Assembly (NCBI GenBank): GCA_025531455.1
Contig: JAMYHL010000031.1
Coordinates: 372,001-436,000, forward strand
Reading direction: 5' to 3'
Length of the DNA stretch: 64,000 bases
From: Apiotrichum sp. Y4204
Lineage: Eukaryota; Basidiomycota; Tremellomycetes; Trichosporonales; Trichosporonaceae
Part shown: in pieces, positions 898 to 51,100 of the stretch
Numbering within the stretch: the first letter of the stretch is position 1
Layout of the letters: every line of letters starts with the position of its first letter
Program-made: the position numbers and the translations under genes
Notes under the pieces: model-generated
What the model was told of the DNA's origin: nothing
Seen by the model: the letters and a program-made list of their open reading frames with translations, nothing else
The model's database searches: none

Positions 898-3800
898 CTA
901 CGAACCGCCGTTAATCTGTACATGTTAGCTGAAAGATTCACAAAAATGTCAAACTCCAATACCCACCTTGTTCTTCACGCGCGTCAGGTACTGCGCATAG
1001 CTGTTCATCTGATCCATGCGGTCCTCGATGAGCAGGCTGAGCGCCCAGGACCGGAGGGCCGGCTCCGCATCGCTCTTGACCACGTAGAGGTACGGGCGGT
1101 AAACGCCGCGGCGCAGCTCGCGCGTCTTTGCGATAATGGCGTTGACACGCTCGTTGAACTTGTTGTCAAGAACCGGAAGAGTTGTCTTGCCGCCCTGGAG
1201 CTCAGCGTACGAGGGAAGGTCGAAAACGTCCTGGATGAGACGGGGGATGGCCGCCTGTCCGACCCAGAGGAACATGTTCTGGCCGTCCTCGATGAGGTAG
1301 AGACCGTGGTTCTCGAGCCGTTCCGATGTGAGGTTGAGCGGGGGAGGGAGAATGACGCCGTTCTCCCCGATGGTACCTGCCTGCTCGGGCATGTTGTGCA
1401 AGCAGTAGAAGCGTGCGTGGATGTAAGGGATGAGGGACTGGGTGGGGAGCGTGGTGAGGAGGTCCTGGGCGTAGGCGCGCAGGTCCGGGGGAATAGTCGA
1501 ACCCTCGCGGAGACCAACGTGCTTTGTGAGACCGCAGGCGAGAAGAGGGAGGAGAGCAAGGTTTGCGGGCGCAGCAAGCTGGGCAGAGGCACCTGCGGAT
1601 CCGGCAATCTGGTTCTTGTAGACCTGGAGCATGTCGCTGAGGCGGTTGAGGACAAGATTGCGCGAGTCGTCGAGTGACGAGCCGCTCATGCACTTCTCCA
1701 CGGCCTTGTTGGCAAGGAATGATGCGATCGCGATCTGGTCGGCCGAAGCGTAGAGCTGCGCCATCGAGTCGGTAGTCGGAATCGCCTGGGTGATGACGCG
1801 AATACGACGCTCGCCGTAGCAGGTGGTGTGGAGGACGGCCGTCTGAAGAACGATGAACGGCTGCTTGAGGTCGTCCTCGAGCTGAAGCTCGATAACATAG
1901 TTCTGGTCGAGCGGGAGCACGGGGAGCGCGAGCAGGTCGGTAGAGCGGATGAAGAAGTTGCCGTGGAACGCCGACATGCGCACGCCGCGCGAGGCACGAA
2001 CACGGATAACAGCCTCGAGTCCGATCGGCGAGGCGAGCACCTTGCCAAACTCGGTAGCAAACTTGATTGCCTCCTCGCCGCGAGACGCGTTGAAACCCGG
2101 GTAGAGGTAAGTCTGACCAGCAGTGTATCGGGGAAGACACGACAGGGTGGCGACATCGGTGTACTGCGAGGAGAAAAGGAACATGTCGACAGAAACCTGC
2201 GACTTTGAGCAGTCGATAGCGAATGTCTTGTAGAAGCTAGAACCAGCCTGGAGAAGCGAGCTCTCCTTGGAGGTGCCGAGAAGCTTGGGGTCGTCGCGGG
2301 CCTTGAGCGCGCCGGTGCCGAGAGTGGGGAGGGAAGCAGAGAGGGCGAGGATCTTGCCACCAATCTTGCCGATGAGCTCATGGGCAGCTTGCAGAGCCGA
2401 GCCGAGCGCGTTGCCAACGGTGTGCGAGTCCTTGAACATGTCCGAGAGCTTGCCAAGGAGGTTCTCAATAGCTGGTCGCGACTCGGTGAGGTTCACGAGA
2501 AGGTCGACAGGCTGGGGAAGGAAGACATCCTGGAGGTCCGAAACAACAAGCATCGTCGGCTCGGCATTCTCTCCCGCCGGAAGGGAGAAGAAGTGCAGGC
2601 TCGTCGAGACACCGATGAAGGCAATCTTTGTGCGGTTGTCCTGGTTGGGAATGTTGTCAAGCGACTCGAGGATCGCGCGCGCCGCAGTGGCGACCATACC
2701 CGATGCAATTGCCGGTTGGCTGACATCGATAACAAAGCAGTACACAGGAGGCTGCGGAGGACGAACCATGTACTCGGTAGGCGCGATAAACTCGACCACC
2801 GAGTGGTTGAGCTCCTTGCGAGCCCAGCGGTCAGCAGGCTTGTTCTCCAACGAGTTCCAGTCGAACAACTGGGGCACCTCGTTGCTCAGGCCACACATGC
2901 AGCACTTCCACCTGTTTCCGCCCTCGGTAAAGGTGACGAACGGGTTGATGTACACGCGGCAACGGCGGCAGCGGGCGATGACAGAGTCCGAGACCACGGG
3001 CACGGGGTCGTCGCCATCCGACTCGCGGTATGAGCGGTAGGGCGCCATGACGAGTGCGAGCGGCAGCTTGGACTTGTTGAGAAGCGACTGGGTCGTGGGG
3101 ATCGCCGCGAGCGTACAGCGCTGGTACGAGGGATTGGGGATAATGGAAGGGGACGCGCTGACGGCGGCGTTCGAGGGGAGAAGGGGAGGAGGCGGCGCGG
3201 CATCGAGCTGGCGAACATCCGGCTGCATGCCAATGAGGTTGACAGTGCTGACCGGGTGCATCTGCTTGGGCTCAGCATAGCCGCCAGGCTGCTGATAACC
3301 GGGTTGCGGCTGCGCGTAGCCCTGGTTCATGTTGAGATTCTGGAACTGGTTCGCCATCTGGTCAACGCCGGGTTGTCCGTACTGCGGCTGCTGCGGCGGG
3401 GCCTGCTGCTGGCTGGCACCGGGCGTGAAGAACTGAGGCGCCTCCGGCTGGGCCGGCTGCTGGGGGTAACCCGGCTGCTGGAATCCAGCGCCAGGACCGA
3501 CCCCAGCACCCGGACCGAAGCCAGGCTGCTGCTGCTGCTGACCCGAGCCGTACACCTCGGCCATCTGCGCGGTCGGGTACTGTCGCCGTTTAGAGTGGTG
3601 TGCAGGCGCGGCGGGTCCAGTCATCGGCGGAGGGGACGCGGCGTTGCCTCCAAAGGACGGCCGGGTGGGAACCTCGAACTGCGTGTGACCAGTGGCCGTG
3701 TCTGAGGTCAGTGCGGGAGCTCAGACGATACAACGGAAGCTCACCAAAGTAAACATACTGGCCGGATGCCGCATCCCTGGTGGTTAGTGTTGTTACTTGT

Positions 3801-12999: not shown

Positions 13000-14112
13000 A
13001 TGTTACGTGACATGTCGATAGGTTAAGTGATGCAAGCAGTCTCATGATGTCGTCGTGACGGGTGTGAGTGAGGGTGTCGTGGAAAGGTTGACGTGGCAGA
13101 TGGCGGATTTCTTCCGGTCTTCATTGGTCTGCACTGTGGCTTTGCCGCCTGGTGACTTCTGCAACGTCGCATGAACAACTAGCTGCACGCCAACGGAAGA
13201 GGGGACTAGGCGATGTCGAGAGGGATCGGTTGCGGAACAGTCAGTATGAGGTGGGATGTGCGATGGTAAGAGCCCACTTACGGTCTGCAGACAATTGTCT
13301 TCCAGAGGAACTTCCGTCGTGGCCTTGGCCATGTCCTGCATGCGGTCGGCCTCGAGATGATGGTCTACAGTAGTCACGAAAAGTCTTCACGCGACAGAGA
13401 TCGTTCTGCGGTGAGAATGCTTTCCCGCATCCATGTACCACTGAGTTACAGTTGCTCAGAGGCTCCTCTTGTGAAGGGGACGGGCTCCAAATGACACCCT
13501 GCTGTTCAGTTTGCATGCACAAGAGGTTCAAGAGGCGCCAGAAGAACAACCGCGTAAAGACTTTGATGTCTACTGTACATTTCACTGCTAAATGTTACAA
13601 TGCGCTTGAAGCCGCTGGGTTTTCTCCCGCCACACCTGGCTTGTCGGTGCCACAATCATCCGAACAAACTCTTACACCGCGCTGCACAAGCAGTTTTGCA
13701 GCTACGGGCTCAAACCTCTGGTAGGTTATGCATGTGCATGTTGAGTACGTTTTGAGATATTTTGTGCGAATTGATTGAATTTATTCGGCCTGCTGAGGCT
13801 TGTTTTCCACTTCATCCCCCACTACAAACGTTTCACTGCAACTGAAGGACTGCAGTACGTACCAGGGCCACTGATTACCCCATGGGGCGCACAGCGACAA
13901 AAACAAAGACAGCCCTGGGTGTAATGCCTTTGCAGACCGGGCGCGGGTATGAAGGGACGAGGGTGGGTGGGGGTGGCGAACGCATGGAGTGACGCGACAG
14001 AGGCCAGGGAGGCTAGGTGCTCATACTGGTGATCGCGAGGTCTTTGTCGTTGACCTCACACATTGCCAGAGCGGTTCCAGCAACTATTCACAACGCCTCA
14101 CACCCAACTACC
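13000..14112. other. Intergenic region after FBA1
   Basis: 1.1 kb with the FBA1 3' UTR and the upstream region of the next gene. No gene, RNA or mobile element was recognised. The short ORFs here carry no family motif. Confidence 0.4.
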
Positions 14113-14928
14113 ATGGAAACCTCTGACACCTCCGACTTTATCCGCCGGGGCCTGAGCAGCCCACTCCTGATTCCCACCGTTCTTTCCGGCAGCCCGTCCT
14201 CGACCACCTCGCTCTCGTCGGCGGAGGTCCCCGACTCAAGCGTCCACAGCGATATGACCGACAGCGAGTGGGACGGCAGCGACAACCCGCCAGGAATACA
14301 TGTGACCTCTTTCCAGATCCCGCTCGTCCTCGAACCCTGGCAGGTGGTGGAGTGTGAGACCATGATACACCGGTATCTCTACGAGACCTTCAGAGGTGAG
14401 TTCGGCGAAACGGACGCCACTGACCTCAGGGACGTGGGTATGCACCTGGGAATACAGCGGCATGGACACCGAATGCCAGGTGGAATGGAGCGAACCCCCG
14501 TCAGGCAAGGTCGAGGCGGCCTTGTCGGAGATTATCCACAGCTTCTTCCCGACCGAGTGAGTGCAATCTGATCTAGTGACGTCTTCAGTGATGGTAATTC
14601 ACATTCCTTCCCACACCCACGTCGAGCCATGGATCTCCGTCTCCGTCTTCGAACGATCGCCCCCTTGTCGCCTCGTCGCGCGCTTACTGACTCCAGTATC
14701 GTCATCACGCACATCGCGCCCCAACCAAGCGACAGCGGACACACGTCAGACACGGGCTCCAATCTCGACAGCGGCGGCACCCCAAGCGATGGCTACGTTT
14801 CTGCCAATTTCCAGTCCATTATGTCTGTAGACTCGTCGGAGGACTCGGGCGCGGATCTTTCGGGCGAGTCGGAGGACGAGGTTGATGACTGCGACTCAGG
14901 TGGGGAGCTCTCGGAGAATGGGATGTAG
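14113..14928 (+). CDS. Tandem-family protein 2 (unknown function)
   Basis: No known family. The Ser/Thr/Asp-rich N terminus (about 65 residues) is followed by the shared domain: FQIPLVLEPWQVVECETM, IHRYLYETFRG, then TWVCTWEYSGMDTECQVEW and GKVEAALSEIIHSFF, and an acidic Ser-rich tail ending DSGGELSENGM. Exons are 14113-14395 (phase-1 donor), 14430-14556 (phase-2 donor) and 14589-14928, giving 249 residues. An alternative acceptor at 14696 (CTGACTCCAG) keeps the same frame and removes a stretch that looks non-coding (about 36 residues), so the third exon may begin at 14697. DTECQV and EAAL..II.S are the parts most similar to the members at 16240 and 18446. Confidence 0.7.
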
Positions 14929-16239
14929 CTCCTCTATCACTAGACAGGTGCCGGCCCGCAACCGAGTGTGTGTACACAGAATACGCAGATTATATCGGAG
15001 ATGAATGCAGTGTATGTCGAGCGTGTGAAGAACGAGGATGCGCAAACGCCGTGGGCCGAGGCCACGGATCCGAGCTGCCGATCCATTGATAGTTATTCGG
15101 ATATCCATTGACCACCATGCATCAAGACCCGTCCCGCATGAGTAGCTCATAGCTGCAGAGATTATGGATCCTTGAAAGCGAGGCTGGGGATGGGGCGCGA
15201 CTAGCCATCGTGGGGGTTGGGCGCGCTTCCCACATAATTGTCGTGGAGTGGGAACATTCTCCAGCGACATGCTCCGGGACAAGCCAGGGGCGTGAGGCGA
15301 CGACGTTCGGCGGGGTCTCCGTTAACGAAACCGTGGAGCTCACAGGACTGGTGGTGCGCCGAGAAGCAACGACAGGTGGCATGCAGCGGCATGACGGATG
15401 GTTGATGTTGTGAGAAAGGCGTTCAGTGAATATGCCACACTGCCACACGGACCCACGCCCTCTTGTCCCTGGTCCAGAACAGTCCTTGTATCGCGCGTTC
15501 CTGATCGGATGACGATCTGCGATCAACACAACAACACCCGATCCTCCATCCGATCCATCCTCCAACTCCAGTCGTGTCGTCCAACATCGGTCATTCCCGG
15601 GCAGTACTCACGCGTCGCTGATTGACTTCTTACCGCTCCTTGCTCCTCGCTCCTCATTCCGCAGCGCGCGCCGCATCTAACAGCTCCCACGCTCCCATGC
15701 CCCAGGTACCTCGCACTCTCGCGGCGTCACTCGCGGGTCACAGATCATCATCCCCGAACGCCGCCCATCACGCCAAGCGCGCGGCGCACACAGCAACGAC
15801 CGCCGCGGCCAGTGCCGTTTCGCACGCCCCTCCGCTTTCACTGGCACGGGATCTGGTGGGGTGCAGCGGCGCACAGTAACGAGCCAGTCGCACTGCCCGA
15901 TTGACAATGTCGGATCATGCCATCCGCCGTCGTGGGTGAGGCGCGGCGCGATGATGGGGGACGGGCGCAGCGACGAGCGTGGATTTGACTGACAGTAGAT
16001 CATGGATTGCCCCAGTCTGACGAGCGGTAGGAAGCAACTAGGACTTTGCGAGCGAGGCCATTACTCCTCACGAGGGATAGCTGCAACTGCTCGCTGAGCC
16101 AGAACGGGTCTACGAAAGATATATAAACAACCCCTCTGGCGGTCTCCAAGTTCTTCACTAAGCTCCTCTTCTCTACATCTCTACTACTACTCCTCTCCGC
16201 GCAACAGCTCAACCAACCTCGCAAACCAACCAAGTTACA
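14929..16239. promoter_or_regulatory. Intergenic region and promoter of the 16240 gene
   Basis: 1.3 kb. The distal part is plain. The proximal part has a strong TATA box (TATATAAA, 16120-16127) 113 bp before the ATG, then a C/T-rich leader rich in CTACTACTC and AACCAACC, as in highly expressed fungal genes. Confidence 0.6.
16120..16127 (+). promoter_or_regulatory. TATA box of the 16240 gene
   Basis: A perfect TATATAAA lies 113 bp upstream of the ATG and is followed by a pyrimidine-rich leader. The position is appropriate for a fungal TATA box with a transcription start some tens of bases downstream. Confidence 0.7.
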
Positions 16240-17648
16240 ATGGTGAGTCTCGGGTTTCATCAATCCTCTCCTGTCCTCCCTCGTCTTCGCGATCACCTCA
16301 GACTTGATCACCATCACTTCTCCTTTCTCGCTGCCTTGGCAGCTCTACTTCTTACTCCTCGCTTCACCTCTTCTCGCCCTCTTTCTATGCCTCCCCTGCA
16401 CTTCTGCTGTGCTAACCCCAGCTCGCCCAGATCCAGAACCCCGTCTCGGTCTTCCGCTTCAACAAGGTCCTCACGGCTGACCAGGTCCTCGGCACCCAGG
16501 AGTTTGTTGTCGACCATCTTCTCAACACCCTCCAGGGCCGTGAGTACTGCTACCAACTCTATATCGACAGCAGCTAACGATCACAGAGAACTGGGCTCTT
16601 CACTGGAACCCCGCCGTTGATGCCACCGAGTGCCAGATCCTCTTCCCCATGATCCCCGACCGCATGACCCACATTCGTCCCATTGCCAACTTCTTCCAGC
16701 AGCACTTTATGGAGGAGTGAGTTCTGATCTGACCTTTGCCCTACTGACACTAGCCCCTCGGTCATCTACCGCCCCCGCAACGAGTTCATCGACCTCCTTC
16801 GCACCTACGACATGAACCGCTGCGTCGAGACCGGCGGCTGGGGCATGACTGTCATGTCTCGCCTCAACAACATTCTCGGCAAGGACATCACCGAGGTCCG
16901 CACCAAGATCGTCACCCCCACCGAGGTCATCTACAAGTACATCACCCGCGAGGCTCCCCTCATGGGCCAGGTTGGCCAGCTCGGCCAGCTTGGCCACTCC
17001 GTTGTCTCCCCCCTCGGCTCTTCGCTCGCCAACCCCATTACCCCTCTTGGTCTTGGCCACGAGCTCTACCGTGACTACCCCCACCCCATGTTCGCCAACA
17101 TGCCCCACCACCTTGTGCGCGGCTTCCGCAACCTCCTCGTCAACAACATGACCAACCTCTCCCCCGTCGGCCTCACCGCCCCCATTGGCCTCGCCGTCGG
17201 TGGCTCGCCCCTCGCTGACTGGGGCCTTCTCTCCCAGTGCCTCACCTCCAACCAGTTCGACTCGCTCGACGAGCAGGAGCGTCTCCACATGCTCCGCTAC
17301 ATGACCAACATGGGCTTCCCCTACCAGGCTCTCCTCGGCACCCAGGGCGAGCGCGTCACCCGCAACAGCATTGACCGTGTTGTCATCGACAAGCCTGCCC
17401 AGCTCGTCTCCCAGGGCTTCAACCAGGCCGTCTGCCAGACCCTCAACCCCGCGGCCGCTGCCGTCTGCGAGAAGCAGACCACCTCGGTCCAGGTCTCCCA
17501 GCAGCCCAACATCCAGACCTCGGTCGTCCCCAACATGACCACCATGGTCCCCAACGTCATGGGCAATGTCATGGGCCACTCCCTCGGCTCGCCTATCCTC
17601 ACCACCCCCATGATGCCGGCCGCCATCTTCAAGAAGACTGTCTGCTAA
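16240..17648 (+). CDS. Tandem-family protein 3, probably very highly expressed (unknown function)
   Basis: Not recognised. The exons are 16240-16242 (only ATG, followed at once by GTGAGT), 16422-16539, 16587-16716 and 16754-17648, giving 381 residues. Acceptor 16430 instead of 16421 would drop LAQ. Residues about 9-80 are the family domain: VFRFNKVLTADQVLGTQEFV, VDHLLNTLQG, WALHWNPAVDATECQILF and IRPIANFFQQHF. The remaining 290 residues are unique to this member: a region with RCVETGGWGMTVMSRLNN and YKYITREAPLMGQ, and a Met/Asn/Val/Gln-rich C terminus ending FKKTVC. No signal peptide or membrane segment is seen. Codon use is almost exclusively C-ending, like FBA1, and a TATA box precedes the gene, so strong expression is inferred. 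Intron phases are 0, 1 and 2, as in its neighbours. Confidence 0.85.
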
Positions 17649-18445
17649 TCCCCTAGCCAGTCTCCAGCCCCATCTCAATGCCCCGTGCCCCGTGCTCTAC
17701 AGCCAGCGAGGCTCATTGCGTGAGAGAAGTTTCATAAAGTAGTAAGGGATGTAACACTGTGCATTTCATAAAAACAAGTTGCGTTGCTTGGGCTCTCTCC
17801 ACTAGTACTTCTGACCACTCACTCACTTGACCACCTCCCATTCCCAATCCCACAGGGTCTGCTCATCTCTGGACACAATCATCAGTCTCAACTCCCTTGG
17901 CGGCAACTCGACAAGGACAGCTTCCTCACAAGCCTGCTCAATCTACTGTCGGACTTTGAACCCCCTGCTAAGACGCTCAACGGGTTCTTCTATCTTCATT
18001 CAGAGATTACCAATTACTAGAGCTTACCCCAGCCCTCTATATAGAGTCAAGAACAACTTCTCACTCCGTTAATGACAGCATTCCTTCACCTCCTTTCTAC
18101 TGGGGTCGGAATCAACACGAGCTAAGACCTGTAGGCTCTATTGACGTCAACAAACAGCCAAAGCCCAAAGCTACCATAATAGGCGGCGGACCGTGCCACA
18201 CCTTACCTTGCACTCAACGGAGGTACGAGGGGCACGGTCCCCCGCCTGGCGTCCTTTTCTGGGCGGCGCCGCGACACAACGCGTCTGAGGCGTCCACCGC
18301 GGTCCGAATCCCGGATAGCGAAAGGAGTCGGGAGAGGTATGTTCATACAGCTTGTCGTTCCCCGCGTGTTGGTCGTTGCAATGCGAGCGATCTACATAAA
18401 CCCCAAGCCCTGCGAGTTCCCTCGGGCTTCCCCACTCAACTGACA
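17649..18445. other. Intergenic region between family genes 3 and 4
   Basis: About 0.8 kb. Short ORFs at 17784 and 17827 have no conserved features. No RNA gene was identified. Confidence 0.4.
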
Positions 18446-19015
18446 ATGACTGCGCCGCTTAAGAGCATTCTCCGCATACCCACTGGCATGGACCAGTACA
18501 TTGCACTGCTTAGTCTCGAGAGCATCGTGCGCCAGCGTCTGAACAAGCTCCTTGGTGGTGGTGAGTCATCAGAACGTGGGTAGGGTAAGGGGCCCCTTCA
18601 AGCCCATCCCCTACACGAGACGAGCTGCTGACCTCAGAGAAATCACACTTGGGATGGGAGTATGCCGAGCACCACACAAGCGTCTACGTGTTCACCCTGT
18701 CGAAGCGGTACACGAAGAATATCGAGGCTGCACTGGTGCACATCATAAGGAGTTACCTCGGCACCACGTGAGTACCAGTGCCTTTCTTTCTCTAAGATTA
18801 GAACCCAAGTCGTCTTCAGCGCCGCACTCTCCGCTTCCCCTGTGATATCCTCTACTTCAAACGCCACAACAGCCCGCCAGCGCCATTCCTCGGCATATGC
18901 GCTGAAGATCCCCACTCCCCGCAGGTTCCCCGTTCCGCCTCATCCTGGGCAACTCGTGCTTGCGCCCGCGACCGGGTATGGCGGCGTGCTCATGCCGCTT
19001 CAGCAGAATGTGTGA
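18446..19015 (+). CDS. Tandem-family protein 4 (unknown function)
   Basis: The smallest member, found by splicing; no single ORF shows it. Exons 18446-18560 (phase-1 donor GTGAGT), 18638-18767 (phase-2 donor GTGAGT) and 18820-19015 give 146 residues in frame. The domain reads PLKSILRIPTGMDQYIALLS, LESIVRQRLNKLLGG, LGWEYAEHHTSVYVFTLS and KNIEAALVHIIRSYL. The tail is Ser/Pro-rich and ends GVLMPLQQNV; the member at 21541 has a similar CPLQQ after its domain. The third exon could contain a further intron (an acceptor-like CCCCGCAG near 18924), which I could not decide. No known family. Confidence 0.7.
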
Positions 19016-21540
19016 GATCAGAGACGGAGAGTACATACATAGACGGGCTGCGTAATGGATACGGGCATAGATCAGTGAACGTGGACAAGTTCTCAAGTGC
19101 CACTTTCGGCATCGTCGGGTGCAGGTTGCACGTGTGGCCGGCCACCAGTCAAACGATGCCAAACAAGCGCACAGCACCAGAACACAAGGTGACCTCAAAC
19201 GAGCAATCTTCCAATCGCACTGACCACAATCTCACAAAGGCCACTAACAAGAAACAGTATCCAAAGGGAGGCCCCACTTCTCTGTCAAGCAGATCCCGGA
19301 GCAAGCCTTCTCCGCGGCAGATGTGGCTGAGACACCCGGCGCAAGTTCGAATCCTTCGGCACCGGTCCGAAAGTGCACAAGGTGAAACATGCACTGCAAA
19401 CGGCAGGGAGTTTGTGTGTTCGGCGTGTCGCATGCCTGGGGCTGGCTCTCGGGTGAAGTGAGAATTTTGCCTGGAGAGCTTCTTACCCCAATCGGCCGAC
19501 TCGCATACCACAGAGCCACCCACGTAACTCTTCTGCTGATGGCGGTGGCGCACATGTGTGTTCCGACGGCGGGCCTGTGCGAGTGATGAAATAGCGGCTG
19601 ACAGAGACTGTTTGCGTTTTGCTTGGCCTGGCTTGAAATGCTGCGTGTTTCCCATTACAGCAGGCCGTGGGGGAGGATCCAGACAGCTGACGGCTGTCGA
19701 CAGTAGTGCAGTTTGTAACCGACAACGACAAGACTCATGTTCCTCCAGGGTGTGGGACCCCGTAGACATCGGAGAGCCGCAGTTATTCATGGCTTGCCCT
19801 GGGACTACTGGCGATCGATCAATGTTCGACCAGCATCGCCGATAGCTGAGGCCTTGTCAGGTGCCGCCGGTTTGCAGGTAACGGATGTGTGGGGTACATC
19901 GTATCCAGTCTGATCATGTTCGTTTCATGCACACACGCTTGTCGAACAAGTCGCCGCGTCATACCTGTTTGAAAGTCCAATCAAAGAATCAACGGTCGAG
20001 GCCCTCAGATGTCTCGAGAGCCCGCGGAGGTGCGGAACGATTGCAGGTAAGAATGGCCTCACGTAAGAATGCCTCAGAGAATGAAAGCGCAGACTTGCAG
20101 GTTCCCAGCACCGGTTCGGTACTGATACTGCCGGTGCTGTCGGCGTCCGAGGGACGTGTTTGGTCGGTGCTGTGTGCTGTGGCGTGTGTGTTGTACACGG
20201 GAGGGAGAGCATGTTCCACAGTGAAGGGTGCCTGAGGAACTCATTCCTCCAACATTTTACGGTCCATTGCCATCTATTCAGTAGCCCTCCCTGCGACGTG
20301 ATCCGGATGTGGCTCGTTCAACGCTCAGTACCATTGCTGTGTCGCCGCTCGTGCCCCCGACCTTTGGCCGCCAACGTTATCCTCCAACCTGTCCACGACT
20401 TCGCCGTGTCTGTGCTGCCGTGTATCGAAAGCCTGATCGCACTCTGCACTCCGGAATTCGTATTTCCCGGAGAGCGTGGCGCGCACATGACGCACCTAGG
20501 GAGCAGGGCATGAAGGGAGTCAAGGAAGTCACCCTGCTGGTTTTGTCCATCGAGGCTGAAGTCAACACACAGTGGTGAGCGTGCAGAACTGACTGTGCAC
20601 GCAGTTTACAGTGAAGGTGTCTGCCCACGCACGTCGATTGACGCGCAGCTTCTGCTTTGGGCTTGTGTTCACCCACGAGTCTGGCAGGTGGGTCTCGGAT
20701 GAGAATGGAACTGAGAGGTAGGTACCAGCAGCGTTCGCGCCTCCTGTGTTCCATTCCAGAAGCCTGGAGGCCACCACTCGTCCGTACATACACCGCCACC
20801 CAACATTGTGAATGTCTCTTCATTCCCTCCGCGCCATTCTCCCCTTCCTTCATGTCGACTCCCCCTAACCAAGGCGACACAACACACACGGTGGCGCTGT
20901 CAACATTGAAAATCAGAAACAGACATGAACCAGCTTTGGGCTACGAGGAGGGTCGGCTGCGTGCCTGAGTCTCCATCGAGTGTTGCAGTGTTAGTCCGTG
21001 ATCCATGGATTCGAGAGCATGGCTCTGCCCCTGCTCGAGAACCCGAACCCACTGACTCGCAACTGGGCAACTGTGCTACTGATCGCTCCTGAAATTCCTG
21101 TAACTGGATTACTACTGTACACCTGACACATGACGAGAAGACGCCACGCCAGTCGCCTCGCCATGGGTACCACGGTTTGAGCCGTACATTGCAGCTGTCC
21201 ACGGCCTACCTTGGCCTTCCCAGGTCCACGATCACTCAGCTTTGTGTGTCGCACCATGTCACACATACCGCTGCACGTCCAAGGGTAGCGACTGGCCCCC
21301 GCATCATGGCTGCTCGTGTCCTCGATACTTAATGTCCGCGAGAGATACCCAACCAGAGCCCCGTCACGGTGACCTCACTTTTACGCGGTTGGCTCGCGAG
21401 TCGCACTTCCAGCCTTGGTTTAACCTGCCCTCATGACCTCCATGCTCGGCCTCTCACTATCGGCAACGGCGACGGGGACAGCAATGCCTGATCCGCTGCT
21501 TCATCCGGCTGCTCATCACCCACTTCCTCCGCCCTCTACG
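19016..21540. other. Gene-poor interval between family genes 4 and 5
   Basis: 2.5 kb without a gene I can support. ORFs up to 213 codons occur (for example minus 19149-19790) but are Cys/Arg/Ser-rich, lack motifs and are typical of GC-rich chance frames. A B-box-like AGTTCGAATCC occurs near 19346, but no tRNA fold was found around it. Confidence 0.4.
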
Positions 21541-22544
21541 ATGGCACACTACGGCCCAACCCCAAACTCCCGCATCGTCTCCAGCTTCGACATCAACCCG
21601 ACGCGCAACGAGCTCTTCTTCGACCTCGTACGCCCCCGCCCCGACAGCCACTGACGGCAGCACGTGCTCTTCAACGTCGCCGAGCGCCTGTCCAACTGGC
21701 AGCTCGATTACACGCTCTGCAGCCTGCGACAGTATCTTGAGAACAAGCGGCGCGGCGCCGCGGACCGTGAGTGATCACCACATTAAACTGAGCTGAAAGT
21801 AGCGTTCAGGTGCCGCGTCACGGCCATTGAACAGGAAACGGCTGTGGGGATGCAGACCGAGTTCTGGATCACCACCAGTCGGTGGACTTGGACCAAGGCC
21901 TGCGATGAGGAAGTCAAGGACGTGCTGGCCCTCTTCCTTCCCATCCAGAGGTGAGTTTAGGGGAAGCGGGGGGCAGCTACCGGCACATCCTACAATGTGA
22001 CGCGCCGGGATACCTCTGATTTTGTGACGTGACTGACGCCAGCTCGGACATCAGCGTGTTGGGGTGGAACGTCCCCGCCGCCCTATGCCCCCTCCAGCAG
22101 GCGGTGGAGGAGATAGAGCTGCCCTCCCCGCTCCCGTCCCCGCCCGTCTCGCCACTAGAGGCACCGAGTCTCAAGGGCGACAAGTTCAGCAACTTTATCA
22201 TCGACGCGCTCGTCGCGTCCTGGGCGGAAATCCCGTCCCCAGGAGGCAACTCCTACTCGCCCCTCTCGTTTCTCGGCGACGACGGAGAGGTGTCCCCCAT
22301 CTCGACGCCGGACACCTCGCCCGAGTCGTCGCTGCAGTCTTACGCGACGACGCCAGAGTCGTCATTCGAAACTTCACCCGAGGACTACTACACCCCATCA
22401 GACGTCTACCGCTCGCCGTCCCCTGTAAACACCTACAGGCTCCCAGCCTGGCCCGAATGCGGGATCTCCATCTCGCGCGCCATCCCCCTCCCCTTCATTC
22501 CTGAGTCCCCCACCTGGACACCACTTACGCCGCACTCTGCCTAG
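21541..22544 (+). CDS. Tandem-family protein 5 (unknown function)
   Basis: Exons 21541-21627 (phase-0 donor GTACGC), 21661-21766 (phase-1 donor GTGAGT), 21803-21950 (phase-2 donor) and 22043-22544 give 280 residues. The domain reads HVLFNVAERLSNWQLDYTL, LRQYLENKRRG, then QTEFWITTSRWTW and DEEVKDVLALFLP. After it comes ISVLGWNVPAALCPLQQ and a Ser/Pro/Asp-rich, low-complexity tail of about 150 residues ending in TPHSA. The first intron has an in-frame stop, so splicing is required. In-frame ATGs lie upstream (21433, 21442), but the one at 21541 has the better context (A at -3, G at +4). No known family. Acceptor 21802 was chosen because it alone keeps frame with a YAG. Confidence 0.7.
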
Positions 22545-23555
22545 CTCTCGCGCTCTCCCCTCTTCATGCCTCATGCCTGACTACTGAATGAATTGCCACG
22601 CCGCACCCACGCCGCCTCGGACACTCCCCTACCACCTGGACACTTGAGTCGCTCTCTGTTGTAGCTTCCTGTATGTATGCTTGACGCACGTAGTTCTCGC
22701 CTACCCCTTGGCCGGAAAGGTTATGTCTCATGCGGAAAGTGTGTCATCGACCACGAGTTCCCACCACTGCTACTCCCACCGCCACGCCGGCTCGAGCGGG
22801 TGTTTGAGGACGCGAGCGCAGGGATGAAGTAGAATATCACATTGCGGAGTGCGTTCCGTGGTGATCAGTGCGCGTCTCGATCCCTTGGAGCGTGGGAATG
22901 TGCTCGAGTCGTTGGGAACAAGATATCTCTCAACACTTTGCGCTGGAACTCTGAAATCAGAACTCGACTGTGATTGAGAAGATGCATCGCCCCTCACATG
23001 AAACTCCTTCCAGTTTCGCTGGAACATGATCTCGGTGTTAGTCTTCACCGCTTTGCGTCTCGCCCCCGTGGAGATGTTGCAATGTTGTGTTGTCGCCGGT
23101 CCGAGCGCAGGGCCACCGTCGTGACCGCGTCGACAATCTCGAGGATTCAATGACGACTGAAGCAAGAGGGAACAATGCGCGTCTGCGGTTTTCCCTCGAT
23201 GCACCATGTGCAATGCGTTAATCCCGATATCCAGCGCGCCGCGATGATTCCAGACGCGTGAGTATGCGAGCCAAGTGCTCGTCACCATGTGGGATTGGGG
23301 AATGGAGTGGCTGACACGGGCTGTGTCTACGCACAGACCTGCAGCTCGTATGATCACCACAGCAGTGTCAACAAATAACGCCCACAAAAGAATGAGGAGG
23401 AGCAGCAAGCAAGCAAGCAAAAGCTCGAGACTTTCAACAGCACTGAAAAATCAAAATCAGTCACGAAAACTCTCCACATCACCATCGCCACTCAACGGGC
23501 ATACTGATCGCCCGAGACAACAACGTCAACAACAACGTCAGCTGCCGTCAAGATA
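22545..23555. other. Intergenic region between family genes 5 and 6
   Basis: 1.0 kb. The last 150 bp upstream of the next ATG are A/C-rich with CAACAACGTCAACAACAACG repeats, a likely 5' leader. Nothing else was recognised. Confidence 0.4.
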
Positions 23556-25107
23556 ATGGCCTACCCACCTCCAGGCGGCCACCGCACTTCGTACAGCAAC
23601 TATTCCCCCACAGGGTACGGCTACTCTGGAGCTCGATCGCCGGCTCCGCCCGCCCCCTCGGCGTACGGAGCGTCCGCGTCGTCGTCGTATTCATTCCCGC
23701 CCTCGCCGAACAGCTTCCCGCCGTCACCATACCAGCCGTTCCAGTATCCGGAGCCCTACCCTTCCGCCACTGACAGGCCGAGTCCCAGGCCAAACCCGAG
23801 AGAAAGCTTACAGTGGCCTGGGGCGCCGTCTCGCCCGGCATCAAGCTACGGCTACGGGGGTTACGGCTACGCCCCCTCGGAAGCCCCATCCGCCGCTCCA
23901 GCTCCTCCACCTCCTCCATCCCCAGCTCCCATGGTCCCCTCCGGCCCTCCCCCGCCAGGCGCCTCGCGAGCCCTCGGCCTCGGACTCACAAACTCGCCAC
24001 CGCCCGCGCCGCCCGTCCCCGTGCCCCCGGAGCCCGTGCGGTCGTATACCCCCGCAGCGTCGCAGGGCTTCCCGCCGTTCACGCCAAATCCTCAGAAATG
24101 GGATCCGGCAGTGATGGCGGCCATCCGCCAGCCGCAGCAGCCGCGCAGGAGAAGCGCGATTCCCGCTCCTGCACCCATCCAGGAGCGACAAGAGCGACAA
24201 GAACGACAAGAACGCCAGTACCCGCCGCCATGTCCCAGCCCTGGGCCGGGGCCAGGGCCCGGGACGGCGCTCTACTCGTTTCCCATGACCCCGGCCCCGA
24301 GCAACACGTACGCGCCACCCCCGCCCCCGCGCCTCCCCAGGCCAGTTACGCCGCCGTACAGCTCCCCGGATGTCCCCTTCGCAAATCCGAATCCGAACCT
24401 GAACCCGAACCCGAACGCATATCCGAACATTAGCGCGTATTCCGCCCAGCCCTACCCACAGCCTGATGGCGGATATCCCTACGGGCCGAACCAGGGATAT
24501 CCGACTAGCCCGCAGTTTGCGACCTTCAGCCACGGCGGCCATGGCGCGCTCTCGCCTCCGCCGCCGCATCCCCGGAACGGCTACGCGCTCCGCTCACCGA
24601 GTCCCGCCAAGGTGCCCGCCTCGTCGTTCCCCAACGACCCGCTGTACATCCCCCCGGACCAGCCATACTCGCTTGCGCCAGCGCCAGCCCTCGCACTGCA
24701 GATGCAGCTCCAGGCCCAGCAGACCCAACAGTACCAGCAGCCAATACGGCAGCGGACACCCGCCCCGCCGCCGCCGGAGAAGTACGCCGTGCTCAAGAGC
24801 ACCTGCAGCCATGTGAGTGATGCAGTGCTTTCCCGCTGACAGCAGTGCGTGAAGATCGCGGTACCACCCCTCGAGGGCGCGCTGTGGCGTGCCGTCCAGA
24901 CCAAAATAACCGACTTTCTCGTTAGGCAAGGCTGTAGGTATATCTTGGTGTGGTAGTGCTGATACAGACCCCGCGATGCGCACCCTCATCTCATGCGAGC
25001 CGTCAAAATACGACGAGATCTCCATACTGACGGTACACGTCCTTCCCGCGTGGAACGCGCGCCTTAACACCGAGGTCGTGAACATTGTGCGCGACGTAGT
25101 CGGCTGA
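23556..25107 (+). CDS. Tandem-family protein 6 with a 410-residue Pro-rich N terminus
   Basis: Exons 23556-24812, 24846-24933 and 24968-25107 give about 494 residues (one more if the acceptor is the preceding CAG). Residues 1 to about 410 are Pro/Ser/Tyr/Ala-rich and disordered, with short repeats (QERQERQERQERQ; NPNPNLNPNPN) and tyrosine-rich patches. The C-terminal 80 residues are the family domain: CVKIAVPPLEGALWRAVQ, TKITDFLVRQG, then MRTLISCEPSKYDE and ISILTVHVLPAW and TEVVNIVRDVV, with the stop directly after it. The first intron is phase 0 and the second (GTAGGT) phase 1, as in other members. Function unknown; a disordered N terminus on a small folded domain suggests a scaffold or regulator. 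Confidence 0.75.
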
Positions 25108-26587
25108 GTGTGCGGCAGGCCCATGTTCGTTTCTTCATTGTCAAATTCAAAAGCAGTCGCGCACCGCTCCTGCCTAGAGTTACGATTGTTGCATTAGAGC
25201 CGGTGATGTTATGCTGTGTTGGTGCATGTAGACCTGGACGGGGGACATTATCTGTACAGTTCAGAGTGTTCTTGAGCATGAAGTGTTAAAGTGGGAGGCA
25301 GAGGAGAAGAGGGGCCGTTACCAGAGACGCCGTGTGGTCGCGCCGGAGAGTGATGATAGGATGAATGGCGACGGGCCTGACGGCGCAAATCAAGGTGAGG
25401 CGAGCTGAAAGTATCAATAAGTTTAGTCGTTTAGTTTGCTTTGTACGTTCGTTGGTCCTTGAAGATGTATTCCCAGTCGCACATCCTCAACAATCACCAA
25501 CAATCTCTCAGTCGCTTCCTCTCCAAGGAAGACAGTCCTGTGGCCATTCCCGTTCTCGTGTGGCCGTGCTTGTCTGACGATCTGCGAGTAGCGAGCAGTG
25601 TGTAGTGTGTGTCGACAGCCGCGCCGGGCAAGAGCGACCATTCGCAACAAATCTCGGATCTCGGCCGCGGTGCGATCCATTGGCCACTGGCATTCAGCGC
25701 GCTGCAGCGCGCATATCGAACCAATGCACGAGATCTGAATATCAGGAGCGCATGGTCGCAAATAGGGACCAGCCCGAGGGCGGCGTGAGTGGTTGTAATC
25801 CCACTGCCATGGACCCCGGATTCCTATAATTCCTATCCTATCGTACTTGGGCCCATGGGTATGTGCTCGGGCAGGTCTCGGTGCGGCGCTACCCGTGTGC
25901 AGCTTGCTGTCCTGTCCAGCGATCAGAGGCTCAGAGGACGAGGGTGGGGTCGATGGTGTCAAGCATGTCAAGGATCAAGGACGTGTAGACTGAGCGCTGA
26001 GCGCTGAACCTTGTGATGGGATGCATGCATATGCATGAGAGTGGGTGAGAGGTGCGAAAAGCTCATTTGTGTACGTCATTAATGACCATGCCATGCTAGA
26101 GTGGAGGACGGGCTGGGGGGCTATAGCGGGGGGGAAGGCAAGAAGGTGGCTCAAGCTGGCAAAAAGGAAGGCAGAATGAGTGATAATGTTGCTTTCTGCT
26201 TGCTGATGCCTACGCTTGCATGAGATCCAGCTTGCATGAGATCCAGTCAACTCCGGTCGGCTCTGTCGGCTTCACAGTCAGCCCCGGGTCCTGGCGGGGC
26301 GGGAAGGGACAGCGCCAGCCAGGGGAGGTGTACCCCCAGGGCCCAAACCCAGTCTCGTGATCGACAAGAGGGAAGGTCACTCCATTCCTCGTTGTCTGGG
26401 ATGATGCCTGCCAACTTGCCAACTGGGCCACAGCTGACTTTGCCGGCAGCACTACGTACCTACGTACCAACTCACTTTCCCAAACCACTACCACCATCCT
26501 ACCTACACTCCTTTGCACTTTACATCCTCTCTCCATCTCTTTCATTCATCCCACCACTTCATCCACCTCCAATTTCCGCCCACCGGA
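25108..26587. other. Intergenic region upstream of the Zn2Cys6 gene
   Basis: 1.5 kb without a gene. A 16-bp unit (CTTGCATGAGATCCAG) is repeated exactly twice in tandem at 26215-26246. ACTACGTACCTACGTACC occurs near 26451 (an 8-bp repeat of TACGTACC). Confidence 0.45.
26215..26246. repeat. Perfect 16-bp tandem duplication
   Basis: CTTGCATGAGATCCAG is present twice head-to-tail, about 340 bp before the ATG of the Zn2Cys6 gene. The copies are identical, so this is a recent duplication or a duplicated protein-binding site. Confidence 0.85.
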
Positions 26588-29410
26588 ATGTCATCACAAC
26601 AAGGAAGCACAAACAACACACCAGCAGACACAGGTCTATCCACTGGCCCAAGCTCAGTAGCACCCTCCAAACCGTCATCGCCTCCCAAACAGCGTGTCAA
26701 CTGGAAGAATGGCCCCCCGAGCTGCAAGGAATGCGTGCGCCTCAAGCTAAAGGTGAGCAAAGCAGCCTCCAAGCTCCAAGTTTATCATTTAACATCTCCC
26801 TAGTGCTCGCGATCGTGGCCATGCTCAAGCTGCGTCCGTCGTGGATGTGCCAAGATCTGCCCCAACGGGACCTTGGCTGGTCGGTGCGTAGTGACTACGG
26901 GAGGTGGGAGGGAGGAATGAGGTGGTCGGAAATGCCCGCTCTGCATGCTCACCCCGCCGCGTCCTGATCTGCAATGGGACAGTGCTGACAATCTCCAGTC
27001 CATCGAAAGACGCCGCCAAGGTCGCGGCGCTACAGAAGGAGAATGAGGAGCTCCGGGCGCGTCTTGCGCACTTCGAGGGGCCGAATGTCCCGGGCGGACC
27101 TGCTCCGCGCCCAGCCGACGGGAACGTGCGGCCTGTAAGTTCATGTCTTCTGCAGAGATAGCATGTACTGACGCATCGCACAGAGCACTGGCAGTGACGA
27201 CGACTACCAGCCGTTTTCGGCCATCTCGCCAGAGGAGGCCGAGGTGGCCCCGGATCCCGAGCTACGCGACGACAACCACCTCGATACGGCTGACGGACCT
27301 GGCGTCGGCTTGATGGAGGTCTCACGCGAAGGCGCAAAATTCCTCGGTCGTGGCGCTGGCTCATTTTTTGTTTGTGAAGACGGCGAGGTGAGTCGTATTC
27401 TGTAGTGGTGACGCTCGATACGGTCATAGGTGACTCTCCGCTAACGGAAAGTCTACCCACCCGGCCCTGGTCTTCCCTTTCATGGCCACTGATCGCCAAA
27501 TCCTGACATCCGTCCACGAGCTATTCCCACCGGCAAACGAGGCGTTCGCGCTACTCAAGGCCTATGGTGCGTATCGGAGAATGCTTGCTGACCAAGAATG
27601 CGGGTGCGTTCGGACCTTGACTGACGCTTTAGACGATTTTGTGGAATGGATGTACCATCCTGCGGACAGATACGCGGTGGGCCACATTCTCGACGGCATC
27701 TACCACGGAAAGTCGATACGCGAGGCCATTCACCATGTTCCGCCCCATCGGTTGGCAACGGTGTTGATGGTGTTTGCCCTGGGAATGGAGTTCAGCGGCT
27801 ACCCCATGTCGCAATCGACCCCACTGTTCAACGCGGCCTCTGCCTTGTTGTGTGTCCCTGAACGCCATTTCATGGTGCGCCACTCCCTTGCCGCTGTGGA
27901 GACTCTCCACATGATGGTATCTTATCTGTTCAACCTGGGACACGCGGACGGCCCCAAAGCCGCGTGGCAGATACTGGGCTTGTGTGTGCGGTCGGCGTGC
28001 TCCATCGGCCTTCATCGCGACGCGTCCGAGTGGGGGTTGTCTGTGCAGCAGCAGGAGCACCGCCGGCGGCTGTGGTGGGAATGCGCCACTTATGATATCC
28101 TGCAGAGTCTCAACTTTGGTCGGCCATACTCGACACCACGCCAGCTGCACGACTGCAAGTGTCCGGATATGCCAGCAGACGGGGGCGTGACGCCAGACGA
28201 CTCTGTGTTCCATGTGTTCTTATACCGCCTCGGCGAGGCCTTTGTGCAGGTGGCCGACTACCTCGCCGCAACGGTGCTCCCCGACTACTCTGAAGTGGTG
28301 CGCATCGATTCCGAAATCCGTCGTGTCGAGGCTGCTGCCCCAGTCTGGCTCAAGTGGTCCGACTTTGGGGAGCTGGATCAATACCCGGGTCTGTCCCAGA
28401 AGCATGTGATCCAACAACATGCCGCGACAATGTTCTTCCACAAGGGATTGATGGGTGAGTCTCGGGTTTGGTGATTGCCGTGATTCGCCATGATTGCCGA
28501 TGCTGATTCCAGTCCTCCACCGTCCTTACTTTTTCAAGGCTGTGGCGAACGGCAACGAGCCTCTCCTCGGTCCATATGCGGCGTCGTTCACCACCTGTGT
28601 CACTTCGGCACGCAAGCACACCCGTCTCGCTGCAGACCTCCTCCGCCGCGTGCCAGAGGCTGCGTATGGGTGGTGGTTCTTTATCTGTGAGCTGCAAAAT
28701 GTAACTGTAAGCTGACAGACAGTCCACGCCTACACTGCGGCGGTTATCCAGTACACGGTACTGCGACGTGTCCCGCAGAGTATGATGGCGGACGACGTGC
28801 GGGCCGATTTCTACGCGTCGGTAGACATTATCGAGCAGATGTCGAACCGTTCCGGGCTTGCTCGCCGTGCTCTCCCCATGCTCAGCCGTCTGCGGCACCG
28901 CATACGCCAGTCGACTGCCGCTACCACCGAGAACACCACACCGGCGAACTCTACACCTGGAAACGGGGGCGACCACGCGCTGTTGGATATGCTGTTTGGA
29001 CCGTGAGTGAAATGACAGTGGGTGGGTGCTGATCAGAGCAGACACCACGATCCCTCTAATCACCCCAACCAGGGGAACGAGACCGGTGGGCCATATGGAC
29101 CAACCGCACACCCCGGTATCAATCCCCATCTTGCCAACGCAAACGTGTACGGCATGGATCCCGTCGCCTCGGGTTCCGCATTTGACACTGGTTTGATGCT
29201 CGGATTTGAACAGCCCCCGCCTGCGGCCCCGGGTGCCCCCCAAGACCAGATGTCCATCACTGACCCCCTCATCCAGACCCTGTAAGTACACTGCCGATCG
29301 AGCGCCGGCTTGCGTTATCTCAGTGACCGGTGTTTGCTGACAACAGCCTGTACTGGCACGCAATTGCGAATCCCGAGGGCCCCCAGGGGTGTCCAGTGCC
29401 CCAGCTGTGA
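26588..29410 (+). CDS. Zn2Cys6 fungal transcription factor with a Fungal_trans domain
   Basis: Ten exons give 759 residues. The N terminus carries a binuclear zinc cluster with six cysteines in the classic spacing C-x2-C-x6-C-x5-C-x2-C-x8-C, beginning CKECVRLKLKC and split by an intron before the third cysteine. A short coiled coil follows (ALQKENEELRARLAHFEG). The middle domain has the PF04082-type motif RSACSIGLHRDASEWG followed by RRRLWWECATYDILQSLNFGRP. The C terminus is Pro/Gly/Asn-rich and ends PQGCPVPQL. Such factors bind CGG-type DNA as dimers and control metabolic genes; the target cannot be told from sequence. An acetate-transporter gene follows 1.2 kb downstream on the same strand; I infer no functional link. 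Confidence 0.92.
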
Positions 29411-30626: not shown

Positions 30627-31471
30627 ATGGCCCCAGCAGTCCCCGTAACCCCGGAGAACGGGCACGCGAACGGGCACGATGCCCCCGTCGCAACCGACAC
30701 GCCGCTCTACTATGGCGCAGGGGACGTCGAGAAGGCGGGCGGCGCGCCCGTCGCGCGCTTCATCACCCCGGGCGGCCACCCGGTCGACTTTTCCCAGCCC
30801 GCCATCCCCGTCCAGCACCGCAAGTTTGGTAACCCCCTCCCCGCGGGACTGTTCTCATTCGGGATGGGCCTCATGCTCATGGGCCTGTACACTGTCGGCG
30901 CGCGCGGGGTTACCCGTCCCCACGCCGGATTCCCCATGCTCGGTAAGTAGAGAGGATCCGCGAGGTTCGTGACAATTCCTGACTCGTTTCAGTCATGTTC
31001 CTTGGAATCACGCAGACACTCGTGGGATGGTTTGAAATGTTCCTCGGCAACACATTCTCAGCGACGATTTTCATCTGCTACGGCGGCTTCATCTGGTCGT
31101 TCCCTATGATGTTTGGCAACGAGCTCGGCACAATGACGGCGTTTACGGTCGAGGGCGCAGTTCTTCCAGAGTTCAACCAGGCCGTCGGGCTGTACTGCAT
31201 CCTGTGGGCCGTGCTCTCGTTCTTCTTCGTGCTCGCCGCCCTCCGCTCATCCGTCGCCGTGCTGGGCACGCTCTTCTTCGTTACGATCATGTTTGCGTGC
31301 ATGGCCGCGCAGTTTATGACCGGCACGGACGGCGCGCGCCTCGCGACCGGCGCGTTCCAGATTATTGCGGGCGTGTTTGGCTTCTGGGCCGCGCTGGCTG
31401 GATACTGGACGCCAGACGTCACCTATGCGTTTATCCGCGCGCCGCCCATCAACCTCGCCCCCGGGGCCTAA
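30627..31471 (+). CDS. GPR1/FUN34/YaaH-family acetate/ammonia transporter
   Basis: Two exons (30627-30942, 30993-31471) give 264 residues. The family signature near the first membrane helix is NPLPAGLFSFGMGLMLMGLY, a variant of NPAPLGL. It is followed by TQTLVGWFEMFLGNTFSATI, FICYGGFIWSFP, LYCILWAVLSFFFVLAAL, SSVAVLGTLFFVTIMFACMA and GAFQIIAGVFGFWAALAGYW: six hydrophobic segments. The N-terminal 70 residues are hydrophilic. Family members (Ady2/Ato in yeast) move acetate and other small monocarboxylates at the plasma membrane and are usually repressed by glucose. No regulatory site was identified. Confidence 0.93.
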
Positions 31472-48100: not shown

Positions 48101-51100
48101 CACAGCTTGCGCAGTTCAAGTTTGAGTACCAGTCCAGCGCGCTCATACTCGCCTGTCTCAACAAGTACCACACCGAGCTGGAGCCCGCAACGGTTGTGGC
48201 ACAGCTTGGCCGGGAGGCACTCGACATCATCCGCACTGCTGCCTTCCCTCCCAAGGAGCCGCCAACAGGAAAGCGGAGCGCCTTGTCTACCCGGACCAAG
48301 ACGCGCACAGCTGTGGCGACTCGCACCCCTACCACGCGGGCAACGAAGACGGCGACAAAGCCCGTGGCCGCGAAGCGCACAGTATCGAAGCCCGAGGTGG
48401 CCGGTGAGCTTACCTGATCTGCCTTCGTAAAGCTGACAGCAGCCGAGCCCCCGGTTGCAATTGCTGGTGACGACACTGGCCGGTTCACCCAGCTTCTTGG
48501 TAGGTTACCAGTTTGACGCCCCTGACACCAGGTTCTCTCGCGTCGCTCTTCGGTCTCCTTGGCCACGTCCTCCCTCGTCTCGAGACGCTCGAACTCCTCC
48601 GGGCCGTGCTCCGCACCTCGGAGGGCATGTCAGATGGTATGTGCAGCTTCGATTGAGGTTGCAAAAGCTGACAGACAGCCGTTGTCCACACCTCGAGCCT
48701 GCTCGCCGTCGAGTACAGCCGCCTCGGCAAGTTCTCGCGCGCTGCCAAGGTCTTCGCTCAGGCGCTCAAGCACGCCGACGACGCCAAGGTGTCTGCCGGG
48801 ACTATGGCCGACGTACATCTCCGCCACGCATGGTACCTCGCGTCAACGGGGCATGTCGACCACGCGTGTAGCGAGTACAGCGCGGCCGCGGAGCTCATGA
48901 AGACCATCCCGCCGTCCAAGAATGCCGGGTATAGTGCACACTACATAGCACTGTGTGCCGAGTCGGAGCGGCTCGCGCTTGCGAACACTGCTCTTGCTGC
49001 TATTAGGATGGCCGAGGTGAGTTGATGTTGATAGATGCCGCTAACTCTCAGACGGACGTTTCGTCAGCAATCGCCAGCCTGAACGCCGCTTATCGGCTGT
49101 GGTGCCGTGCCGCATCGGGTATCAGCCGCATTGCGATCAAGATGGATCCTACTGCAGAGGACAGCGCACCGCCGAGCCCGTCTCGTTCTGCTGGAATCAC
49201 TCCTCCAGGCTCGACTTCCCAGAAGCCCAAGAGCAACAGCTTTTACCTTGAGGGCAAGCGCCTCGGCGGCCTGCAGTGGTACTATGCTATGGGCCTGTTT
49301 GACTCAACTCTCGATCTCATAGCCGCACTCGCCCAGCGGGGAACGGTCAAGGAGTGCGAGTATTATCTCAATTCGCTGAAGCAGATGGTACCGTCTATAC
49401 GATCGACTGCCCTCGAAGCGCGTGTGTCCGCGCAGGATGCCGCTCTCGACGCAAGGAAGTTCAAGTACGAGTCCTCGGCTGCGAGCCTTCGCCACGCAGC
49501 AGAAGTGTTGGCCGTAAGGGATGGACCGGACGCGATTGAGCTCAAGCGCCTCCGCGGCGAGCTCTACTCGCGCCAGCAGGCGGCCCCGCAGGCAGATGAG
49601 TTCTTCACGATAGCCATAGAGGCACTCGAGTCGCTCAACGAGAACTTTGCCGCCGTCGAGTCCCACGCGTCCCCGAAGAAGGACCCTAAGGCGCTGATCA
49701 AGGAGCCGCTGCTCCCCCACGCTCTCGGCCACATTCTCCGCCAGCGTGCGTGGCTCCTCCGCGAGGCAGGCGAGATGGAGGAGTACGAGCACGTCATGCA
49801 GCAGCTCGAGCTCGTCCCCGAGGCTGCGGGCGAGAAGGTGAGTAGCAGCTAGCAGTAGTTGTTCGCAGCTGACATTACAGCCCGAGCAGCTCTTCCTCGA
49901 TGCGCGCGTAGCCATGTCCGAGGCATTCAACCACTTCAAGACGGACCTTTTCATGAGCTCACTTACTGAATCCACAATTGCTATGACAATGGCAACACCA
50001 GACAAGCGCAAGGACCGGCTGTCGACGCGACACGGCGCGAATGTTCTCCTCGAGCGCGCGGTGCAGGCTTTCCGGACCACGTTAGCAAGCGACGCCCGCA
50101 CGGGACGGGTGGAGGACGTCCGTCAGGCGTGTGTCTCGCTCGCTGTCCTTGGCGCGTTCCAGACCTCCCTGGGACAGGGATCACCCGCGATCACCTCCAT
50201 GGCGGCCGGCGTACTTGCCTCTGTCAGCTCGCTCACCCTCGACCGTGAGCTGATCCCCGCGATTGAGAGCAAGTTCCCGGATCCTGCTGTGAACGACCTC
50301 ACCTGGCCCCCGCTTGAGCGTGCGGCACTTAAAGGATCAGACCCCGCCGCGGCGTACTGGAATGAAGTAGCGACCAAGCGTAGTGCAGCTTCCATCCTCG
50401 ACAGGCAGTACGACCTCAAGTCGCTACCCTACTCGTGGGCGATTGTGAGCATTACCGTCACCGACGACCGGAACACGATGCTCGTCTCGCGGCACCAGAA
50501 CGGCTTCGACCCTGTCGTGTTCTGCATCCCGCTCGACCGCCAGGGGCGGCGCGAGGGCGACGACGAGAGTGAGCTGTTCACCTTTGACGCGGGAATCAAC
50601 GAGCTGGAGGCGATCATGGAGGGCAACGACGCGAGCATCAAGAGCATCTCGGGATGCGTCACGATGGAGGACCGCAAAGCGTGGTGGAACACGCGGTACG
50701 CACTTGATGCCCGGCTGGGGGAGCTGCTGGCCTCGATCGAGTTCTGCTGGCTTGGTGCTTTCAAGACGATTCTCAACCCCCGGCCCATCATCAATGCCGA
50801 AGCGTTCACTGCCTTCCGCGAGCGTCTCGATCTCATCTTCCAGGGCGCGCTTTCCAGCGCTGGCACCGACACACGGCGCGGCGCCCGCGTTCGCCTCAAC
50901 GACGCGCTTCTCGCCTGCTTTGCCACGCTCTCATCCAAGTGCAAGGACGAGGAAATTGAGGACCTGGTGTACTTTGTCTTGGACCAGTACCAGTTCCACG
51001 GGATTGCCGTTGCCCTCGCCGAGCTCGACTTTGAGCAGATTGGCGTGGACGTCAAGGCGGCTCTGGCGGATCTCGAGATGGCGACCGCAGGGACTCGCGA

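Follow-up and report, generated by a model that had tools for sequence, protein, structure and literature searches.

A tandem family of five Apiotrichum genes with a common domain and a common intron plan

The window analysed here, a 64,000-nucleotide (nt) stretch of contig JAMYHL010000031.1 from Apiotrichum sp. Y4204 (assembly GCA_025531455.1, forward-strand positions 372,001 to 436,000), carries five consecutive plus-strand genes, called genes 1–5 below, which a first-pass annotation had described as a tandem family outside known families, joined by a domain of about 78 residues and by a common intron plan. Our analysis supports that description. The domain, now placed at about 75–90 residues, is firmly common to genes 1–3, very probably to gene 4 and, judging from alignments, likely to gene 5, and the peptide fragments quoted in its favour are all present in the sequence. 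The array genes are intact, their splice sites are conserved and they are under purifying selection. The best overall explanation, to which we give an even chance of being right, is that old tandem duplications spread a small alpha/beta domain that would self-associate in an abundant assembly.

Intron plan and evidence of homology among the five genes

All of the proposed splice donors were found: phase 1 at 14396, 16540, 18561, 21767 and 24934, phase 2 at 14557, 16717, 18768 and 21951, and phase 0 at 16243, 21628 and 24813. Splicing at these donors gave full-length frames of 213, 381, 146, 281 and 494 amino acids (aa) for genes 1–5, respectively. Gene 1 (14113..14928; exons 14113-14395, 14430-14556 and 14697-14928) has its domain, counted to the phase-2 intron, at 14299..14556, with a 34-nt phase-1 intron (14396-14429) inside it and Ser/acidic tails on both sides. 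The coding part of gene 2 (16240..17648) begins with an exon that consists of the ATG alone (16240-16242), followed by exons 16422-16539, 16587-16716 and 16754-17648, and its domain occupies 16440..16716, split by the phase-1 intron 16540-16586. In gene 3 (18446..19015; exons 18446-18560, 18638-18767 and 18820-19015) the domain lies at 18455..18767 around the phase-1 intron 18561-18637. Gene 4 (21541..22544; exons 21541-21627, 21661-21766, 21800-21950 and 22043-22544) has a phase-0 intron (21628-21660) directly before its domain (21661..21950), a phase-1 intron (21767-21799) within it and an acidic, Pro/Ser-rich tail after it. Gene 5 (23556..25107; exons 23556-24812, 24846-24933 and 24968-25107) has a Pro-rich N-terminal tail of 415 aa and carries the domain at its C-terminal end (24846..25107), with a phase-0 intron (24813-24845) before it and a phase-1 intron (24934-24967) inside it.

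At matching places, therefore, the phase-1 intron is present in all five genes, the phase-2 intron in four of the five and the phase-0 intron in three. The stop codon of gene 5 stands where the other members have the phase-2 intron. Exon B, between the phase-1 and phase-2 introns, measures 127, 130, 130 and 151 nt in genes 1–4, and 140 nt to the stop in gene 5. The phase-0 intron is absent from genes 1 and 3, and gene 5 has a 1257-nt exon ahead of its own; gene 2, with its ATG-only first coding exon, may be the keeper of the ancestral layout. Each of the 12 introns has GT..AG ends, both in the window and in the second genomic copy of the array, on contig C104. The acceptor on which the phase-1 intron of gene 4 relies is weak (AAAG in the window, AGAG in the second copy). 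Half of the 12 introns, which span 14396-24967, are just 33-37 nt long, lengths that approach the known lower limit for fungal introns; an excerpt of PMC11913375 describes a 20-40 nt class among the introns of Cryptococcus neoformans.

Sequence similarity among the domains was scored against shuffles, the counts below being the number of shuffled sequences that scored as well as the real one. Leave-one-out domain profiles recovered genes 1, 2 and 3, each with 0/2000 shuffles, and a profile of these three scored gene 4 with 4/2000 (domain) or 3/2000 (whole protein). Global alignment anchored at the introns gave z scores of 5.4-8.7 for each of genes 1–3 against the other core genes and of 3.6-3.8 (0/1000 shuffles) for gene 4, whose exon-A segment, the one ahead of the phase-1 intron, was entered without the three residues before that intron. 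Plain pairwise local alignment reached 0/500 shuffles for the pairs 1-2 and 1-3 only, the other eight of the ten pairs giving 45 to 472 of 500, and exon profiles of genes 1–3, run over all six frames of the window, failed to single out the exons of either gene 4 or gene 5, exon A of gene 4 appearing only at an expectation value (E) of 6.1. The first-pass annotation named as refuting a result in which the five domains miss one another while each finds a different known family, and this is not what was obtained: genes 1–3 found one another, gene 4 did so weakly, gene 5 did not by profile, and no domain matched a known family.

The case of gene 5 bears on whether only genes 1–4 form a family, with gene 5 an unrelated neighbour whose alpha/beta C-terminal domain and two introns resemble theirs by coincidence. 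Its domain was not recovered by the genes 1–3 profile (352/2000 shuffles), which speaks against a family of five; its pairwise local scores with the other members are not significant, and it is without the phase-2 intron and the last strand. The anchored alignment of gene 5, however, gave z scores of 2.3-2.7, with 8/1000 shuffles against the other four genes and 19/1000 against genes 1–3, and only 2 and 9 of 1000 decoys drawn from real proteins, all of them segments of 120 Sec24-type proteins, did as well. Moreover, its two introns are arranged as in the others, phase 0 ahead of phase 1, its exon B is of similar length, and its strong constraint is confined to the domain, where the ratio of nonsynonymous to synonymous substitution rates (dN/dS) between the two copies is 0.079 as against 0.248 outside. 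We consider the coincidence unlikely and, on these comparisons, regard the homology of genes 4 and 5 to the others as probable.

A second copy of the array and the probable origin of the family by duplication

The five-gene array is duplicated, in reversed orientation, on contig C104, with 90.7% identity across 13643-25239. Because the array has this second copy and the GAPDH-family matches in the genome arrive as two pairs, we infer a hybrid or diploid genome; the assembly comprises 48.9 Mb in 182 contigs and thus exceeds the four hybrid Trichosporonaceae genomes for which an excerpt of PMC7026411 gives a mean of 40.5 Mb and a maximum of 42.4 Mb. All five frames are without internal stops in the second copy, and every difference in coding length is a multiple of 3. 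Between the copies, dN/dS for the whole gene and for the domain was 0.36 and 0.33 in gene 1, 0.22 and 0.18 in gene 2, 0.19 and 0.17 in gene 3, 0.10 and 0.07 in gene 4, and 0.22 and 0.08 in gene 5, compared with 0.18 for a WD40 frame and, for the two neighbours that flank the array, 0.019 (an exon of a class II fructose-bisphosphate aldolase) and 0.038 (a fungal transcription factor frame). Most coding exons have their substitutions mainly at third positions, a pattern that is weakest in exon 1 of gene 1 (7, 8 and 8 changes at the three positions). In genes 1, 3, 4 and 5 the synonymous divergence, after correction, is 15-30% and exceeds the intergenic divergence, which is 7-8% at 14940-16230, 19020-21535 and 22560-23550 and 10% at 17660-18440; the intergenic DNA of the array may hold constrained regulatory sequence. 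The transcription factor frame, with its very low dN/dS, lies just downstream of the array at 27482-28474, and a separase-family (Peptidase C50) frame is found at 49914-51455 of the window.

As the first-pass annotation had stated, the flanking tails are unrelated: none of 19 tail pairs scored above shuffles (the closest at 34/300), and the tails of genes 1, 4 and 5 are of low complexity. Together with the position of the domain, which is N-terminal, central or C-terminal, this is what would be expected had exon shuffling put a mobile module into five different host genes, an alternative that the first-pass annotation had left standing. Such a module needs flanking introns of equal phase, and here the domain has a phase-0 intron before it, a phase-1 intron inside it and a phase-2 intron after it, so that exon A (0-1), exon B (1-2) or the pair (0-2) inserted into an intron would shift the frame. 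The members all have one orientation and form a single cluster, and the host tails have no independent relatives where tested. Genome searches with single-protein queries that ignored introns, in which the best 2-11 candidates of a first look were taken (gene 4 as its first 134 aa, gene 5 as its last 87 aa, one query carrying wrong residues at two exon junctions), found members in the array and its second copy only. We therefore consider the mobile module very improbable; tandem duplication of whole genes that now have unrelated tails accounts better for the asymmetric phases and the single cluster. Since DNA-level repeats between members amount to no more than three matches, none longer than 24 nt, the duplications are old.

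Seven loci with weak matches outside the array in the genome searches (E 0.1-3.3) looked unrelated by eye. A six-frame scan of the window for a sixth member with exon profiles gave only the array above threshold; the profile included genes 4 and 5, whose own matches in that scan are by construction, and its best row outside the array (E 0.048; 31081-31422, minus strand) runs antisense to a GPR1/FUN34/yaaH exon and was rejected. The four stretches between the array genes were also scanned for runs of 50 codons or more without a stop; only one of these, of 58 codons at 21167-20996 on the minus strand, had an excess of third-position changes (5, against 4 at the other two positions together).

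The ancestral gene would have comprised the start codon, a phase-0 intron, exon A encoding strand 1 and helix 1, a phase-1 intron, exon B encoding strands 2 and 3 and helix 2, a phase-2 intron, and a last part with strand 4 and a tail. After tandem duplication in one orientation, tails would have been gained and lost, the copies keeping the small alpha/beta domain while everything outside it was replaced or lost.

Predicted fold and predicted abundance

Read by eye, the domain consists of strand, helix, strand, strand, helix and strand; an intron follows each of the two helices, except that in gene 5 the domain ends after helix 2. Helix 2 is amphipathic across the five members (0/2000 shuffles), and the hydrophobic periodicity of strand 2 is marginal (p 0.028), in segments that were themselves chosen by eye. 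This order points to a probable ferredoxin-like beta-alpha-beta-beta-alpha-(beta) domain, a class that in its complete beta-alpha-beta-beta-alpha-beta form includes ACT, Dabb, HMA and RRM.

Gene 2 stands apart in its codon usage. Of its 357 degenerate codons, not one has A in the last position, and 71% have C there; the last exon of its second copy has 0.4% A-ending and 72% C-ending codons. The corresponding values are 0.7% and 68% for two GAPDH frames, 0.9% and 60% for an EF-Tu-family frame (by eye EF-1 alpha), and 1% and 69% for the aldolase exon, compared with 10-14% A-ending codons in genes 1, 3, 4 and 5. The comparison used rows L044, L045 and the first L048, the wrong-frame or short rows L047, L050, L051 and the second L048 being excluded and L046 giving none; L049, a short piece, had 2.2% and L052 8.4% A-ending codons. 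The bias of gene 2 is at least equal to that of GAPDH and is that of highly expressed genes. Three features lead us to predict that gene 2 is very strongly expressed and its product very abundant: this bias, a TATA-like sequence found by pattern scan at 16120..16130 on the plus strand, about 120 nt upstream of the start and putatively functional, and the intron that immediately follows the ATG. The product is lysine-poor.

Gene 2 would thus encode a protein that ranks with the cell's most abundant, and genes 1, 3, 4 and 5 are predicted to be weakly expressed paralogues. In the mechanism that we consider most likely, the domain would act as a unit of homotypic association, through which the gene 2 product would build an abundant assembly, presumably soluble and intracellular because none of its segments is hydrophobic enough to span a membrane; the other members would add disordered tails, each of a different kind, to this assembly. 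Several points weigh against this proposal. The periodicity of strand 1, helix 1 and strand 3 is not significant (p 0.26, 0.135 and 0.22, respectively); AlphaFold2 gave a predicted local distance difference test score (pLDDT) of 41 for a stretch of gene 4 read through one intron, and structure prediction for the last exon of gene 2 gave a pLDDT of 32, neither of them a confident model; and the abundance is a prediction from codon bias. Fold, self-association and assembly are offered here as conjectures from sequence.

Orphan status and comparison with known systems

None of the five proteins convincingly matched a known family, as the first-pass annotation had held. In Pfam, where gene 5 was entered as its last 80 aa, the proteins found nothing but YjjI for gene 2, below the cut-off (E 0.19). 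The domain queries found DUF7050 in Pfam for one of six domain rows (E 0.51), a best E of 0.064 for one of six in NCBIfam, and best E values of 0.62 and 0.17 in the PDB; in PHROGs, one family of unknown function matched two of six (E 0.0049). Viral and prokaryotic contigs held no relative of the last exon of gene 2, and broadly worded literature queries, which do not prove absence, returned nothing on such a family. The domain could also belong to a known ferredoxin-like family, such as Dabb, ACT or RRM, that has diverged past recognition and hence is not new. The inferred order of strands and helices is common to many such families. Divergence past recognition does occur, for up to about a third of orphan genes in an excerpt of PMC7028367. 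No Pfam, NCBIfam or PDB match of the domain queries, however, was better than E 0.06, and the one PHROG family is itself of unknown function; we think this origin somewhat unlikely.

Genes 2 and 4 were also searched against 5.8 billion predicted proteins, and neither the 4374 candidates for gene 2 nor the 656 for gene 4 included one at E<=10. A control with the Sec24 frame of the window (949-3624) matched, among the best 120 of 1427, unnamed proteins at 88% and 83% identity, then Cutaneotrichosporon cavernicola and Vanrija humicola at 82%, and Cryptococcus and Kwoniella at about 69-76%, so that Trichosporonales are contained in the database. That the nearest named Sec24 relatives are Trichosporonales also fits the Tremellomycete placement implied by the first-pass annotation. 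Genes 2 and 4, the two searched, are thus orphans in the sense of having no detectable relatives in a database that includes kin of the organism. Relatives in other Trichosporonales might nevertheless exist and have been missed by gene prediction, as introns of 33-37 nt are easily mispredicted and the search covered predicted proteins. That so long and so strongly constrained a last exon as that of gene 2 (297 aa) should be missed, with Sec24 found in the same order, speaks against this, and we see it as a possibility of some weight, although probably not the correct one.

The array is a case in which a family can still be recognised by its intron positions although its protein sequences have nearly lost the signal. 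To our knowledge, very abundant proteins are almost always old and shared; if the reading of gene 2 is true, a protein with codon bias of GAPDH class but no detectable relative among the sister genera sequenced so far would offer an uncommon opportunity to study how new genes reach high expression. The family falls outside those known and is probably important. Tentatively, and with low confidence, the domain may be new and confined to one Trichosporonales lineage, its founder having become one of the cell's most abundant proteins, recently arisen and possibly a self-assembling structural protein decorated by its paralogues.

The array resembles the lineage-specific tandem arrays and taxonomically restricted genes described in an excerpt of PMC7028367 in its local cluster, its fast-diverging tails and the lack of detectable relatives of genes 2 and 4; it differs in that the intron plan survives deep divergence and in that one member has codon bias of GAPDH class. 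With the ferredoxin-like ACT, Dabb, HMA and RRM domains it would share its strands and helices, in number and in order, and the length of about 75-90 residues, whereas it has no sequence match in Pfam, NCBIfam or the PDB and no recognised motif, and its own fold is inferred.

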